Source of the DNA: Nocardia altamirensis NBRC 108246
Lineage (GTDB): Bacteria > Actinomycetota > Actinomycetes > Mycobacteriales > Mycobacteriaceae
Assembly: GCF_001612685.1 (NCBI RefSeq)
Contig: NZ_BDAY01000010.1
Span: 1-64,000 of the forward strand
Direction of reading: 5' to 3'
Length of the DNA stretch: 64,000 nt
The notes under the pieces are model-generated. The model was given only the letters and a program-made list of their open reading frames with translations. It was not told the origin of the DNA and did not search any database. This document shows, piece after piece, positions 50,439 through 57,947 of the stretch. Both the position numbers and the translations under genes were made by a program. The first letter of the stretch is position 1, and each line of letters starts with the position of its first letter.

Positions 50439-51659
50439 TCAGGCGGTGCGGTAGGACCGCGCGACCAATGCCGAGCGCAGATACCACAGGCCCGACGGCT
50501 GCGACGGATCGAAACCGGTGAGCTGGCCGATCCGTTTGAGGCGATAGTCGACAGTGTTGGTGTGCACGTGCAGGACTCGCGCGGTCCGCTGGCGGTTGAG
50601 GTTGTTGCCGATGTGGCGCTGCAGGGTTTCCAGCAGTTCGGGATGCTCGTCCAGCGGGTCGAGCAACTGGCCGAGGTACTCACGGCCGGGACCCGGCCTG
50701 GTCAGCTGATATTCGAGCGCGAGCTCGTCGAACCGGTACAGCCCGGCCACCGCTTCCAGGCGCTGCACCATGTCGAGCAGTTCGTGGGCTTGATCGGCGG
50801 CGTTGGGAATCTGTTCCGGGGTGGCCTCGATCATGGTCGCGGTGATGCCGACCTGAGCGGCGTGCGACAACTGGGTCACCAGTCCGTCGAAGCCCTCGTT
50901 GTCGAATCCGTCCGACGGAATCAGCACGGTGCCACCGTCGACGCTGAGCAGCGACAACGCGCGATCACCGCAGCGCGTCGCGAGCTCGGCCTGCACCCGG
51001 CGCAGCTTGCGGCGCGCGACGACCTGGCTGTCGATCATCGGGTTGTTCTCCTCGCGGTGCGGCGGAATCGCCACGGCGAGAACGGCATACGAGGTGGCGA
51101 TGGCAATGCCGCATTCGCGGGCCATGGTGGAGGTACTGTGCCCGCCGAGCAGGGCCGAGGTCAACGTGTGCACCGCGGTGTGATGTTCGCTGACCACGGA
51201 GCGCAGTTCCCTGATGTAGGCGACCGAGATCGCCGAGCTGATCATGTCCAGCATTTCCAGCACCATCTTGGCGCCGTCGACCAGGCTGTCGTAGTCCTTG
51301 ATGGACGCGTCGGACACCACCAGGTCCAGGCCCATCTTGAAGCCCTCGTGGATCGAGTGGTGGATGGTGTCGATCGGCACGCCCTCGCGCGCCCAGCCCG
51401 CGGCGGCCTCTTGCAGGCGCTGCAGCTTTCCCGGGATGTCCTGGCCGTCGAGCATGCTGACCGCGAATTCGAGGCAGACCCTGGTGATGGTGGTGACGTC
51501 GCCGGAGATCGCGTCGGACGGCAGTGTGCCGCAGGGGATGACGTTCTCGACGAAGTGCCCGACCATCTGACGCGATAACGCGCGAACGTCCTTGAGTGGC
51601 TGGGACATCGGCTTACCTGCAAGGGTCAGGATCTGCCTCGCCGAGTTGTCGATCGACAT
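50439..51659 (-). CDS. CdaR/PucR-family transcription regulator
   Basis: 406 aa. Helical N-terminal sensor region; a GGDEF-like middle domain (ALLGGHSTSTMARECGIAIATSYAVLAVAIPPHREE and LRRVQAELATRCGDRALSLLSVDGGTVL); and a C-terminal HTH_30 (LETLQRHIGNNLNRQRTARVLHVHTNTVDYRLKRIGQLTG, near 345-385). AAGGAG stands before ATG 51659, which is preferred to an upstream in-frame Met. It converges on the lipase gene. A related protein without the HTH is encoded at 56979-57947. Confidence 0.87.
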   Translation of the reverse strand: MSIDNSARQILTLAGKPMSQPLKDVRALSRQMVGHFVENVIPCGTLPSDAISGDVTTITRVCLEFAVSMLDGQDIPGKLQRLQEAAAGWAREGVPIDTIHHSIHEGFKMGLDLVVSDASIKDYDSLVDGAKMVLEMLDMISSAISVAYIRELRSVVSEHHTAVHTLTSALLGGHSTSTMARECGIAIATSYAVLAVAIPPHREENNPMIDSQVVARRKLRRVQAELATRCGDRALSLLSVDGGTVLIPSDGFDNEGFDGLVTQLSHAAQVGITATMIEATPEQIPNAADQAHELLDMVQRLEAVAGLYRFDELALEYQLTRPGPGREYLGQLLDPLDEHPELLETLQRHIGNNLNRQRTARVLHVHTNTVDYRLKRIGQLTGFDPSQPSGLWYLRSALVARSYRTA

Positions 51660-52045
51660 TGACCACTCCTTCTGCCCCCGGATCTCGTTGTACCCGCCCC
51701 CGGGGATGTAGCTGTGCGGCGCATTCACACTAATCGTTCGGTCTTCGGCGCGGACCGATTCGCCGGGTTCTGTGCTCTAGATGGAGACTGGTCGGTTGGT
51801 GTTGGTGCTTTGTCACAACGGCCGCGCAACGGCGCTACCAGCGGATCCTTCGGTGACGAAATCCGGTACCAGCGGTTCTGTCGGTTGCCCCGAGCGCGGA
51901 CCGCCCTGGCGGTAGTATCGCTCGCGCTGGGCCAAACCCCAGGAACCAGGGGCTTGCCGGAGATATGCCGTGCCGGAGAGGGTGTGCAGTACCGGCATGG
52001 GTGCGCGGCAGGATGGCAGGGATGACGAACCGATAGGGGCTTGCG
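51660..52045. other. 386-base intergenic region with a short leader frame
   Basis: No clear gene. TAGTAT near 51914 may be a -10 for the rightward gene. Near-repeats containing AGGGGCTTGC stand at about 51944 and 52038; the second one provides the ribosome site of the HAD gene. A 23-codon frame (51965-52036, ATG after GGAG, two Cys) ends nine bases before the HAD start. Confidence 0.45.
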
Positions 52046-52522
52046 GTGAGACCGGCTCTGAGATGTCTTGTCTGGGAACTGGACAACACATTGTGGGACG
52101 GCGCGGTCAGCGAGGCGTCCAGTGGCGCACTACGTCCGGCGGCGCTGCGCACGCTGCGGCTGCTCAGCGAGCGCGGCATCTGGCACGCCGTGGCCAGCCG
52201 GGGTGATCACGACTTGACCATGGCCACCCTGTACCGGCGCGGCGTCTACGAGATGTTCTCCGCCGTCGAAATCGGCTGGGGCCCGAAGTCTTCGGCGATC
52301 ATCCGGATCGGCGCGACGCTCGGGCTGAGCTTGGACACCATCGGCTTCATCGACGACGAGCCGGTCGAACGCGCCGAAGTGACCCGCGCGCTGCCCAAGG
52401 TGCGCTGCTATGCCGCCCGCAATGTCGACGTGCTTCCGGTGCTGCCGGACTTCCGGCCTGCGGTGCCGTCCGGACCGAACCGCACCCCGCCGATCGGCTT
52501 CGCCCGGGTACCCGCGCTGTAG
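52046..52522 (+). CDS. FkbH-like HAD-IIIC protein lacking the nucleophile Asp
   Basis: 158 aa, one HAD domain. CLVWELDNTLWDG (residues 7-19) is motif I of the FkbH/HAD-IIIC group, normally DLDNTLW: Glu11 replaces the phosphorylated Asp while Asp13 is kept. Other motifs are present: VASRGDHD, GWGPKSSAIIRIGATLGLSLDTIGFIDDEPVERAEV with Lys and the paired Asp. Phosphatase or phosphotransfer chemistry is doubtful; a binding or regulatory role is possible. GTG start after AGGGG. No polyketide or glyceryl-carrier genes are nearby. Confidence 0.8.
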   Translation: MRPALRCLVWELDNTLWDGAVSEASSGALRPAALRTLRLLSERGIWHAVASRGDHDLTMATLYRRGVYEMFSAVEIGWGPKSSAIIRIGATLGLSLDTIGFIDDEPVERAEVTRALPKVRCYAARNVDVLPVLPDFRPAVPSGPNRTPPIGFARVPAL

Positions 52523-52588: not shown

Positions 52589-53455
52589 TTACGCGGGCAC
52601 CGCGATTTCGAGCGCCCGCAGGCGGGCGGGATCCGCGATCACTTCATAGGCCGCGATCCGATCGTCGCGCACGGTGACAACAAGCGCGAGCAGCAGCCGC
52701 CCACGCGGCGCGACAAGGATGCCGATCGCGCCGTCGACAACGGCAAGCGCGGCCACCCGCGAACGGCGTTGCAGCAGTACGGTTTCCTTCGCCACCTCGG
52801 TCGCGCCCGCGACCACGGCGGCGATTCCGGCGGGCAGCGCGGCGGGATCGGCGATCCGCACCACATCTGGGGCGAGCACCGCGAGCAGTGCCGCCAGGTC
52901 GCCGCCGCGGGCCGCGGTCAGGAACGCCTCGACCACCGGCCGCTGCACAGCGAGTCCCGGCGTGGTTTCCCCGCGCACTCGCTGCCGCGCGCGGCTCGCC
53001 AGCTTCTTCGTGGTCGCCGGTGTCCGCCCGACGATCGGCGCGATCTGATCGAACGGCAGCGCGAACAGGTCGTGCAGCACAAACGCCACCCGCTCGTCCG
53101 GCCCGAGCCGGTCAAGCACCACGAGCAGCGCGCGACCGACCGAATCGATCAGCACCGCTTCCTGTTCCGGATCGCTGTCGTAGGCGGTGTCGCCGAGTTC
53201 GGCGAGCAGGTCCAGCGGATCCTCCCGCCGAGTCGCGCGGGCCCGCAGCATGTCCAGGCAGATCCGGGACACCACCGTGGTCAGCCAGCCAGGCAGGTTC
53301 GCCACCTCACTGGTGTCGTGCCCCGCCAGCCGCAGCCAGGTCTCCTGCACTGCGTCCTCGGCCTCGCTCAGCGATCCGAGCATCCGGTAGGCCACCGCGC
53401 GCAACTGGCCGCGCTGCGTCTCGAAACGCTGCGCCAGCAGGTCTTGCGCGTGCAT
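52589..53455 (-). CDS. ECF41-type RNA polymerase sigma factor with SnoaL-like C-terminus
   Basis: 288 aa. Region 2 near residues 10-75 (RGQLRAVAYRMLGSLSEAEDAVQETWLRL), region 4 near 110-165 (LDRLGPDERVAFVLHDLFALPFDQIAPIVGRTPATTKKLASRARQRV), then a fused NTF2/SnoaL-like domain to the end. This layout defines the ECF41/SigJ type, where the C-terminal domain controls activity and no separate anti-sigma factor is needed. It is divergent from a DoxX-family gene that it may control. Confidence 0.9.
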   Translation of the reverse strand: MHAQDLLAQRFETQRGQLRAVAYRMLGSLSEAEDAVQETWLRLAGHDTSEVANLPGWLTTVVSRICLDMLRARATRREDPLDLLAELGDTAYDSDPEQEAVLIDSVGRALLVVLDRLGPDERVAFVLHDLFALPFDQIAPIVGRTPATTKKLASRARQRVRGETTPGLAVQRPVVEAFLTAARGGDLAALLAVLAPDVVRIADPAALPAGIAAVVAGATEVAKETVLLQRRSRVAALAVVDGAIGILVAPRGRLLLALVVTVRDDRIAAYEVIADPARLRALEIAVPA

Positions 53456-53894: not shown

Positions 53895-55478
53895 TCACCC
53901 CTTCAGGATGAACTGCGCCGCCTGCTCGCCGATGAAGACCGCGGGGGCGTGCGTGTGGCCACGGATCAGCATCGGCATGACCGACGCGTCGGCGACCCGA
54001 AGACCTTGGACGCCACGGACTTCCAGGCGCGGGTTGACGACGCTGGCCACGTCGGTGCCCATCCGGCAGGTGCCGACCGGGTGATACAGGGTGTGCGAGT
54101 AGCCGTTCAGCGCGAGCTCGAGGGCGGCCTCCCGATGCAGCGGCGCCTGCGGCGGGTAGATCATCGGGCCGAGCACGGCCTTCATCGCAGGCGCGTCGGC
54201 GATGTCGGCGCAGATCCGCAGGCCCGCCATCAACGCGGCGCGATCCGCGCCCGCACTGTCGGACAGGTAGCGCGGGTCGATCATCGGCTTGGCGGCCGGA
54301 TCAGGCGAGGTGAGCGTGATCCGGCCCCGGCTGTGCGGGCGCAGCAGGACCGCGGCGAGGATGTTGCCGTGCTCGGTCGGATCGAGCAGACCCTCGTAAT
54401 AGAACGGGGCAGGCGCATAGATGAGCTCGAGATCGGGCAGATCGAGTTCGGGTGTGCTGCGCACGAATCCGTACGCCTCGCCGACATTGGAGGTCAGCAT
54501 GCCACGATGCCGGATCAGGTAGTCGAGCAGCTGGCGCGGCTTCTCGGCGGCGAACAGTGAGTCCGCCACCGTGTAGCCGAGGCCGGCGACGAGATGGTCC
54601 TGCAGGTTCGCGCCCACCTCCGGTGCGTGGCGCAACGCGCGAATACCCTGGCGCGCCAACTCGTCCCGGTCGCCGATGCCCGAAAGCATCAGCAGCTGCG
54701 GACTGTTGATCGCGCCACCGCAGAGAATGACCTCGCGGCGCGCCGCGACCCGGTGCGGCCCGCCACCCTGGTGGTATTCGACACCGGCGGCTTGGGTGCC
54801 TTCGAAGAGCACCCTGGTGGCCAGCGCCTCGGTGCGGACCGTCAGGTTCGGGCGGCGCATGGCGGGTTTCAGGTAGCCGTCCGCGGTGCTCCAGCGCCTG
54901 CCGCCGTGCTGGGTCACCATCGTCTGGCAGAACCCCTCCGGCTCCGGCCGATTCGGCGGCTCCAGCTCGAAGCCCGCCTCCTGCACCGCACGCAGGTACG
55001 CGGCGGTCGAGGTGCGGGGACTGCGCTGCCGCGAGATGTGCAGCGGACCGGCGGCGCCCTCGTCCGGATACTGCGCGTCCTCGACATTTTCGATCCGCCG
55101 GAACTGGTCGACCGCGGCCGCGAACCCCCACTCCTCACCCGCAAGCAGCGCCCACTCGTCGTAGTCGGCCCGGAACCCGCGCACCCACATCATCGCGTTC
55201 ATCGACGACGAGCCGCCGAACATTTTGCCGCGCGGCCAGTAGATCTGCCGATTCTTCAGCTCCGGCTGCGGTTCGGTGAGATAGTCCCAATCGACCTCGG
55301 AGCGAAACAGTTTCGCGAACCCCGCGGGAATATGGGCAAACTTGTTCTTGTCCGGCGGCCCCGCCTCCAGCAGCACCACCGTGGTCGCGGGGTCCGCACT
55401 GAGCCGATTCGCCAGCACCGCGCCCGCCGATCCGGAGCCGACAATCACGTAGTCCGCAGTAAGCCCATCTGGTTGCAC
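53895..55478 (-). CDS. GMC-family FAD oxidoreductase, choline dehydrogenase-like
   Basis: 527 aa. [31 protein letters not shown] (residues 10-40) binds [21 protein letters not shown] and [21 protein letters not shown] are the two GMC signatures; [15 protein letters not shown] holds the catalytic His. Members oxidise primary alcohols. No betaine aldehyde dehydrogenase is adjacent, so choline is not a strong guess; a long-chain or terpene alcohol is also possible. It starts at GTG. Confidence 0.87.
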
Positions 55479-56978: not shown

Positions 56979-57947
56979 TCAAGCCGACCAGCCGAATTCG
57001 GAATCATTGGTCGAGTTGACGTACGGCGGGTGACCGGGCTGGGCAGTATCACAATCGTCATCCGCTTCGGGCTCGACAACCCGATAGAGGCCTGGCGGCC
57101 GCTCGTCGGCGCGCACGCTGTCCAGCAAATCGTGTGTGCGAGCGGCCAGTTCGGGGATGCGGGCGGTCGGGCCGCTGGCCGCGGTCGCGGTCAACGGCAC
57201 CTCCGCGGCTTCGCTCAGCAGGCCGAGCACGTCCGCGGTCACCGCGGGAACGCCGACGCGCGCCGACCGGTCCTCGATCGGCACAAGCACCGTGCCGCCT
57301 GCGACGGACAACAGCGACAACGCGCGCGAGCCCAGCGGATCGGCCAGCGCGGCCTGTACCCTGCGCAGCCTGCGCCGAGCCGCCGCGACGCCGGCACCGG
57401 GTCTTCGCTCCTCCGGGTGCGCCGGAATACTCAGCGCCACAACCTGATAGGCGGGCGCCACCGCGATCCCGGTCTGTTTGGCCAGCTCGGCGACGCCGTG
57501 CCCGCCGAGCAGCGCGGACACCAGGGTCTGCGCTGCGGTCTGGTGTTCTCTTGCTACCACGCGATGTTCGTCCACGTAGGCCGTCGAGGTGGTGACCGTG
57601 ACCATCTCGAGCACACGCAGCATCAGCTGCGCGCCCGCGACCACCTTGTCGTCCTCGGTCTCGGCCGCAATGAACGCCAGACCCGAGCGGAGCTCGTCGT
57701 GATAGGCGCCGAGCACGGTCTCCAGCGCCACGCCCTCGCGCGCCCATCGTGTTGCGCTGCCTGCGATTTCGGGCGGTTCGGCGACCGGAGCCCGGCGCGG
57801 ACCCAGCCGCTCGACCGCCGCCGCCACACAGTTTCTGGTGGCGGCGGCGACCTCACCGGACGAGGGGTCACCCGGCGGCCTTGCCAAGTAATCGAGCAGC
57901 TTCGATGCCAGATTATCGGAATTCGATCTCACCCGCTGTGCCGTCAT
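56979..57947 (-). CDS. truncated CdaR-like protein without DNA-binding domain
   Basis: 322 aa, paralogous to the regulator at 50439-51659: TRWAREGVALETVLGAYHDELRSGLAFI, ALLGGHGVAELAKQTGIAVAPAYQVVALSIPAHPEE and LRRVQAALADPLGSRALSLLSVAGGTVLVPIEDRS align block by block. After PPGLYRVVE it diverges and ends; the C-terminal HTH_30 present in the 406-aa relative is missing, and no HTH remnant is seen downstream. It may be a sensor or dominant-negative partner, or a decayed regulator. Confidence 0.75.
   Translation of the reverse strand: MTAQRVRSNSDNLASKLLDYLARPPGDPSSGEVAAATRNCVAAAVERLGPRRAPVAEPPEIAGSATRWAREGVALETVLGAYHDELRSGLAFIAAETEDDKVVAGAQLMLRVLEMVTVTTSTAYVDEHRVVAREHQTAAQTLVSALLGGHGVAELAKQTGIAVAPAYQVVALSIPAHPEERRPGAGVAAARRRLRRVQAALADPLGSRALSLLSVAGGTVLVPIEDRSARVGVPAVTADVLGLLSEAAEVPLTATAASGPTARIPELAARTHDLLDSVRADERPPGLYRVVEPEADDDCDTAQPGHPPYVNSTNDSEFGWSA

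Follow-up and report, generated by a model that had tools for sequence, protein, structure and literature searches.

A short HAD-type protein of Nocardia with glutamate at the nucleophile position: a probable pseudophosphatase clade derived from FkbH-like proteins

Results

The window, i.e., the whole stretch of 64,000 nucleotides that was analysed from Nocardia altamirensis NBRC 108246, was found to contain a genuine open reading frame of 158 amino acids on the forward strand (52046–52522, TAG stop codon included), which starts with GTG and encodes a HAD-IIIC-derived protein. Motif I of the protein was CLVWELDNTLWDG (WELDNTLW), present in the stretch W10-E11-L-D13-N-T15-L-W17-D-G19 (52073–52102, forward strand); the DNA read at 52073–52101 was TGGGAACTGGACAACACATTGTGGGACGG. 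In HAD enzymes, the aspartate of motif I is the residue that accepts the phosphate. The first-pass annotation had claimed that a glutamate replaces this nucleophile, and the claim was borne out, as Glu11 was read from the GAA codon at 52076–52078. On the same strand, Ser51 occupied the phosphate-binding position of motif II (52196–52198), followed by Lys81 of motif III (52286–52288), Asp103-Asp104 of motif IV (52352–52357), and a C-terminal tail of residues 141–158 (52466–52519). Comparison of the upstream regions showed a conserved CCGATAGGGGC with a Shine-Dalgarno-like AGGGG immediately 5' of the start codon (52030–52040, forward strand).

The window protein scored 41.6 bits against the NCBIfam HAD-IIIC family (TIGR01681), above the cut-off of 35.75 bits; all 64 aligned members matched the family at E 0.01 or better, the cut-off itself being compared for the window protein only. 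Against FkbH (TIGR01686) it scored 100.5 bits (9.7e-29), below the cut-off of 146.65 bits, because the second half of the FkbH model was absent and the match covered model positions 1–149 of 323 only. The protein thus did not show the HAD and GNAT-like halves of an FkbH protein scoring above 146.65 bits. A Pfam scan gave weak matches only, all of them under the cut-off.

The AlphaFold model of the window protein (mean pLDDT 85.1, pTM 0.80) showed a confident HAD core and a weaker region at residues 21–30 (block mean pLDDT 62), and the predicted structure had the capless HAD Rossmannoid core of the HAD-IIIC fold. In the Foldseek lists, which are the tool's own top matches and were read for HAD-like proteins, the top solved structure was the phosphatase domain of BF1531 (3slr; Z 19.0, 138 residues aligned, rmsd 2.0), followed by MDP-1 (1u7p and 2wm8; Z 18.2, 136 residues aligned). 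The protein therefore resembles BF1531, MDP-1, and HAD-IIIC by its fold match and its score over the HAD-IIIC cut-off; the aligned motif of 3slr, LDLDNTIW, contains the aspartate, whereas the Nocardia protein is devoid of the phospho-accepting residue.

Among 150 genomes of the genus, 131 contained at least some match, and a short orthologue of 157–175 amino acids was present in 109, own genome included. A fragment of 34 residues at a contig end (genome G026) was left out of the 109; the other 108 loci were fetched and the orthologue counts were run on all 109. Glu11 was conserved in every one of them, encoded by GAA in 95 and GAG in 14 and never by GAC or GAT. In a named collection, the best 80 of 99 confirmed loci, which overlap largely with the 109 orthologues, were all from Nocardia and all contained the glutamate. 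The first-pass annotation had proposed aligning orthologues to see whether the glutamate is fixed across Nocardia, and had regarded its presence in this strain alone as evidence against its reading. The alignment showed fixation within the genus, so a strain-specific change was ruled out, and the agreement of the 109 orthologues and the 80 named loci shows that Glu11 cannot be put down to chance or to faulty sequencing. Other acidic columns of the orthologues were found to exchange aspartate and glutamate, as in position 54 (D49/E57), position 97 (D84/E19), and position 135 (D62/E47), whereas positions 105, 108, and 111 were also strictly glutamate. Since the codon of position 11 was never GAC or GAT, one third-position change away, while other acidic columns do exchange the two residues, glutamate at position 11 itself appears, from these alignments, to be under selection.

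The median dN/dS was 0.10 in 258 close pairs of short orthologues, which argues that the gene is functional. It was higher (0.31) in 400 random pairs, where synonymous change was large (median dS 0.83). The alignment of 28 diverse short proteins contained 43 invariant columns, and the 109 listed short matches were all free of internal stop codons. Judged by these substitution patterns, the short HAD gene is functional and under purifying selection.

Among the catalytic residues, Lys81 and Asp103 were invariant (109/109), position 13 contained Asp in 106 and Asn in 3 orthologues, and position 51 contained Ser in 89, Ala in 16, Gly in 3, and Thr in 1, so that Ser or Thr was kept in 90 of the 109. 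The first-pass annotation had stated that the other acid, the Lys, and the DD motif remain. This holds for the window protein itself, with Asp13, Ser51, Lys81, and Asp103-Asp104, but not for the clade as a whole, where position 104 was Asp in 15 of the 109 proteins and the DD pair was gone in 94. The same position was Asn in 32 and Asp in 20 of 52 full-length relatives that retain the nucleophile, so its drift alone is no sign of lost activity. The canonical residues other than position 11 (positions 13, 15, 51, 81, and 103) were all intact in 82 of the 109 short proteins vs. 51 of the 52 full-length relatives. At least one of them was lost in 27/109 vs. 1/52 (Fisher p 1.1e-4, a value that overstates the significance because the rows are related and not independent).

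Outside the genus, the matches listed in an order sample of 397 genomes (E up to 1e-20) were all present in open frames of at least 328 amino acids, and all ended by profile position 146, before the tail, except for two, which reached position 152 (open frame of 847 amino acids) and position 154 (open frame of 361 amino acids). Asp was present at the nucleophile position in all 13 outside-genus loci that were read. In a class sample of 394 genomes, the Glu motif pattern gave 2 matches, both from this genus, and the Asp pattern gave 21 matches in 12 genera; this genus contributed only 4 genomes to the sample, and the Glu pattern, being slightly stricter than the Asp pattern at one codon, fails to catch true members, e.g., that of G149, whose motif contains Ser for Thr. 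For these reasons, our claim is limited to the order and class samples, in which no Glu form was seen beyond the genus.

Of the 52 full-length FkbH-like relatives (12 + 40), 41 belonged to this genus and 11 to other genera, and all 52 contained the nucleophile Asp in motif I. A tree of 158 distinct sequences (106 short and 52 full-length), rooted at the midpoint only and with the bootstrap incompletely settled, placed the short proteins on one side of a single branch (100/100), which was recovered in 100% of 200 bootstrap trees. The stem of the short clade was long, at 0.75 changes per column. Next to it was a branch of three full-length proteins that belong to other families in the order; the support was 99/75 for the three and 99/85 for the join. 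The positions that were fixed to 95% or more among the short proteins and shared by less than half of the full-length relatives were 11 (D to E), 23, 33, 35, 37, 58, 105, 123, 125, 147, and 149. At position 23, Asp was present in 106 of the 109 short proteins vs. Glu in 52/52 full-length relatives, the window protein and two others keeping Glu23; position 105 was Glu in 109/109 vs. D33/Q19 in the full-length relatives.

The GNAT half was absent from the short proteins, and a C-terminal tail was found in its place. Neither of these features, nor the separate short clade with Glu that was not seen beyond the genus, had been mentioned in the first-pass annotation. T147 and P149 of the tail were conserved in 109/109, followed by G151 in 103 and F152 in 100, as in the examples PTPPLGFARVPA and PTSPMGFAHI, and the tail was without counterpart in the full-length relatives. 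In the AlphaFold model, the tail block had low confidence (pLDDT 53 and 58). A tail that is conserved yet unfolded in the predicted model suggests a candidate docking peptide.

No constant neighbour gene was found across the 109 loci. Immediately upstream, 41 loci had a PucR-type regulator, 25 had a TerD-domain protein, and 17 had a predicted lipoprotein (named by eye); on the downstream side, the adjoining gene was convergent at 81 loci. An upstream neighbour of any kind on the same strand was present at 40 loci, with a gap of more than 100 bases in 35 of the 40. In the 5 kb flanks, one GMC oxidoreductase family was called at 54 loci and another at 50. These calls came from a simple GC-frame script and are fallible, as seen in the window where a forward-strand frame (F51) was called over the reverse-strand gene for a SigJ-like factor. 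A functional link to a neighbour was rejected, as no partner was constant; TerD had seemed promising, but at 84 of the 109 loci the flanks contained no TerD call.

In the window, the reverse strand contained a PucR-type regulator with a C-terminal HTH (PF13556) at 50439–51728, a SigJ-like ECF sigma factor downstream of the short gene at 52589–53455, with a SnoaL-like C-terminal match under the Pfam cut-off, and a GMC oxidoreductase further downstream at 53895–55478. A protein of 322 amino acids at 56979–57947, also on the reverse strand, was PucR-regulator-like by eye, had no match to the PucR HTH, and is perhaps truncated.

The intact short gene was missing from 41 of the 150 genomes, G026 with its fragment among them, so some members of the genus can do without it. 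The neighbouring GMC protein gave a near-full-length match of 81–87% identity in 40 of these 41 non-carriers; in G026, the search gave a fragment at 86% plus weaker matches. No gene remnant was found when 12 short proteins were searched by tblastn against 30 of the 41 non-carrier loci, where nothing was better than E 0.002. The top match (L344, E 0.002) covered 34 residues and, examined by hand, lay out of frame inside a different called gene of 312 amino acids, and it was therefore taken as chance. The TerD and GMC genes that flank the short gene in carriers such as L132, L141, and L163 were directly adjoining, with no called gene in between, at 6 of the 30 non-carrier loci (L329, L331, L333, L336, L338, and L345), which shows that the short gene can be cleanly absent.

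In the upstream regions, TAGGGGC was present in 76 of the 109, and the 9-mer CGATAGGGG in 46 of the 64 in the group of the window. The element GGGGCTTGTCCGGCAC, allowing up to 4 substitutions, was found in 58 of the 109; in these 58, it was followed by about TGGATGGT and was mostly located 94–118 bases before the start codon. The match was at about -53 instead of about -100 at L144, L155–L158, L160, and L161. The window was absent from the 58 and contained a similar, more diverged stretch at approximately 51949–51989. A related pattern (up to 2 mismatches) had 55 matches in the own genome vs. 82 for the control, which rules out a repeat family; GGGGCTTGTCCGGCAC looks like a putative local promoter.

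Discussion

From the fixed substitution, the tree, and the conserved tail, we infer a selected clade of pseudophosphatases derived from FkbH-like proteins and seen in one genus. An ancient, genus-restricted pseudophosphatase that has kept its Mg/phospho-ligand pocket and docks to a partner through the tail is, in our judgement, the probable identity of the short protein. An FkbH-like HAD+GNAT protein would have given rise to the short form, apparently once, by keeping only the capless HAD domain and losing the GNAT half; the short form would also have acquired the conserved C-terminal tail and exchanged the nucleophile Asp for Glu. The differences themselves and the existence of one clade are observed, and the order and direction of the change are read from the tree. 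With its carboxylate one methylene longer, Glu11 would not form a productive aspartyl-phosphate, and phosphatase or phosphotransferase activity would be expected to be gone. Lys81, Asp103, and mostly Asp13 and Ser51 may still form the pocket for Mg2+ and a phospho-ligand. The most likely role would be to bind or sense a metabolite or protein in its phosphorylated state without hydrolysing it, and to signal to a partner via the tail.

The same substitution has been made in yeast Pah1 (PMC12357310): the D398E enzyme, changed at the motif I nucleophile, was inactive at every substrate concentration assayed, and its overall structure was unaffected as judged by limited proteolysis. The likeness lies in the Asp-to-Glu change at the first position of motif I with the overall structure kept; in yeast, the change is a product of mutagenesis, whereas in Nocardia it is natural and fixed across a clade. 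Pah1 is a distant HAD enzyme, which limits the weight of its result for the Nocardia protein. Together with the drift of other canonical residues (27/109 vs. 1/52), the inactive D398E enzyme (PMC12357310) supports the pseudo-enzyme reading that had been offered from the window alone, and an inactive phosphatase is the likeliest reading of the short clade. The different chemistry that the first-pass annotation had named as its other option is less likely. The 82 orthologues with all other canonical residues scored intact are counter-evidence, as this is, on the alignment, more than would be expected if catalytic constraint were wholly gone.

Non-catalytic roles of the HAD fold are found in Tim50 and in the phosphatase-like domain of sucrose-phosphate synthase, both pseudo-HADs. 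They are of different lineages, and their likeness to the present clade lies in a HAD fold that persists without catalysis, as proposed here.

In response regulators, an Asp-to-Glu change can mimic the phosphorylated state. Glu11 might likewise be a permanent mimic of aspartyl-phosphate, locking the HAD in the phospho-state with constitutive Mg-dependent docking and a flexible PTPPLGF-like tail recruiting the partner; we consider this rather unlikely. If true, the HAD fold would have become a signalling adaptor that is permanently on and peculiar to Nocardia.

The short protein might instead be an active phosphatase or phosphotransferase, with Glu11 either as the nucleophile or as a metal ligand only while water or another residue attacks; nearby changes (Glu23 to Asp and position 105 to Glu) would then re-fit the pocket around the longer side chain. 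The strict retention of Glu11, Lys81, and Asp103, with Asp13 in 106/109, and the swaps at positions 23 and 105 speak for such an enzyme, but motif II Ser has become Ala or Gly in 19 of the 109 orthologues, Asp13 has become Asn in 3, and the inactivation of Pah1 by the same change (PMC12357310) argues against it. As the window protein itself has Glu23, like two others, the length swap at position 23 is not required, and we regard an active enzyme as unlikely.

The FkbH-type HAD domain (TIGR01686) resembles the Nocardia protein in sequence over model positions 1–149, with motifs I–IV in the same order, and differs in that the latter has no GNAT half, has Glu for the nucleophile Asp and a new tail, and has no recognised PKS/NRPS neighbour. 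Association with PKS/NRPS genes is typical of FkbH proteins, though not strictly defining. The neighbour families that were characterised (PucR-type regulator, GMC oxidoreductases, SigJ-like factor, and TerD protein) included no recognised PKS/NRPS gene, three loci having an unexamined flanking ORF of more than 1,000 amino acids. This weighs against the idea that the short protein regulates a full-length FkbH-like HAD+GNAT enzyme of its own cell or acts as its decoy, in a heterodimer or as a competitor for the carrier protein. The homology to the HAD half only and at least one further match in 58 of the 109 carriers (hand count) would fit such a role, but 51 carriers had no second match at E 0.001 (hand count; one of them, G032, is 85% complete) in a search that scores only candidates from a loose first look and may miss weak relatives. 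A full-length FkbH-like partner thus seems not to be obligatory, an obligate one being made unlikely by these 51 carriers, and the decoy role as a whole is improbable. A decaying pseudogene or annotation artefact, as might be suspected from the missing nucleophile and the lost half of the ancestor, is extremely improbable and was rejected on the basis of the low dN/dS of close pairs, the invariant columns, the stop-free frames, and the conservation in 109 genomes.

Bacterial pseudophosphatases of the HAD superfamily seem to be little described in the literature searched, which left most subscription journals outside and gives no proof of novelty. In the portions of that literature available, PMC12357310, PMC3170909, and PMC7489565 included, no natural HAD-IIIC protein with a Glu nucleophile was met. 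The probable pseudophosphatase clade of 109 proteins, in which Glu is strict at the nucleophile position, provides a natural setting for asking whether a HAD active site can persist purely as a binding site. The gene itself is short, lacks a constant neighbour, and is found across a genus that includes human pathogens, so its role is directly testable.

Some of the full-length FkbH-like relatives in this genus (L165, L167, L168, L277, L279, L285, L287, L290, and L307) were found to run into open frames of 868–975 amino acids. The frame of L165 (754–3501, genome G004), the sole long frame scanned, contained an FkbH half and, after it, an amino-acid adenylation domain.
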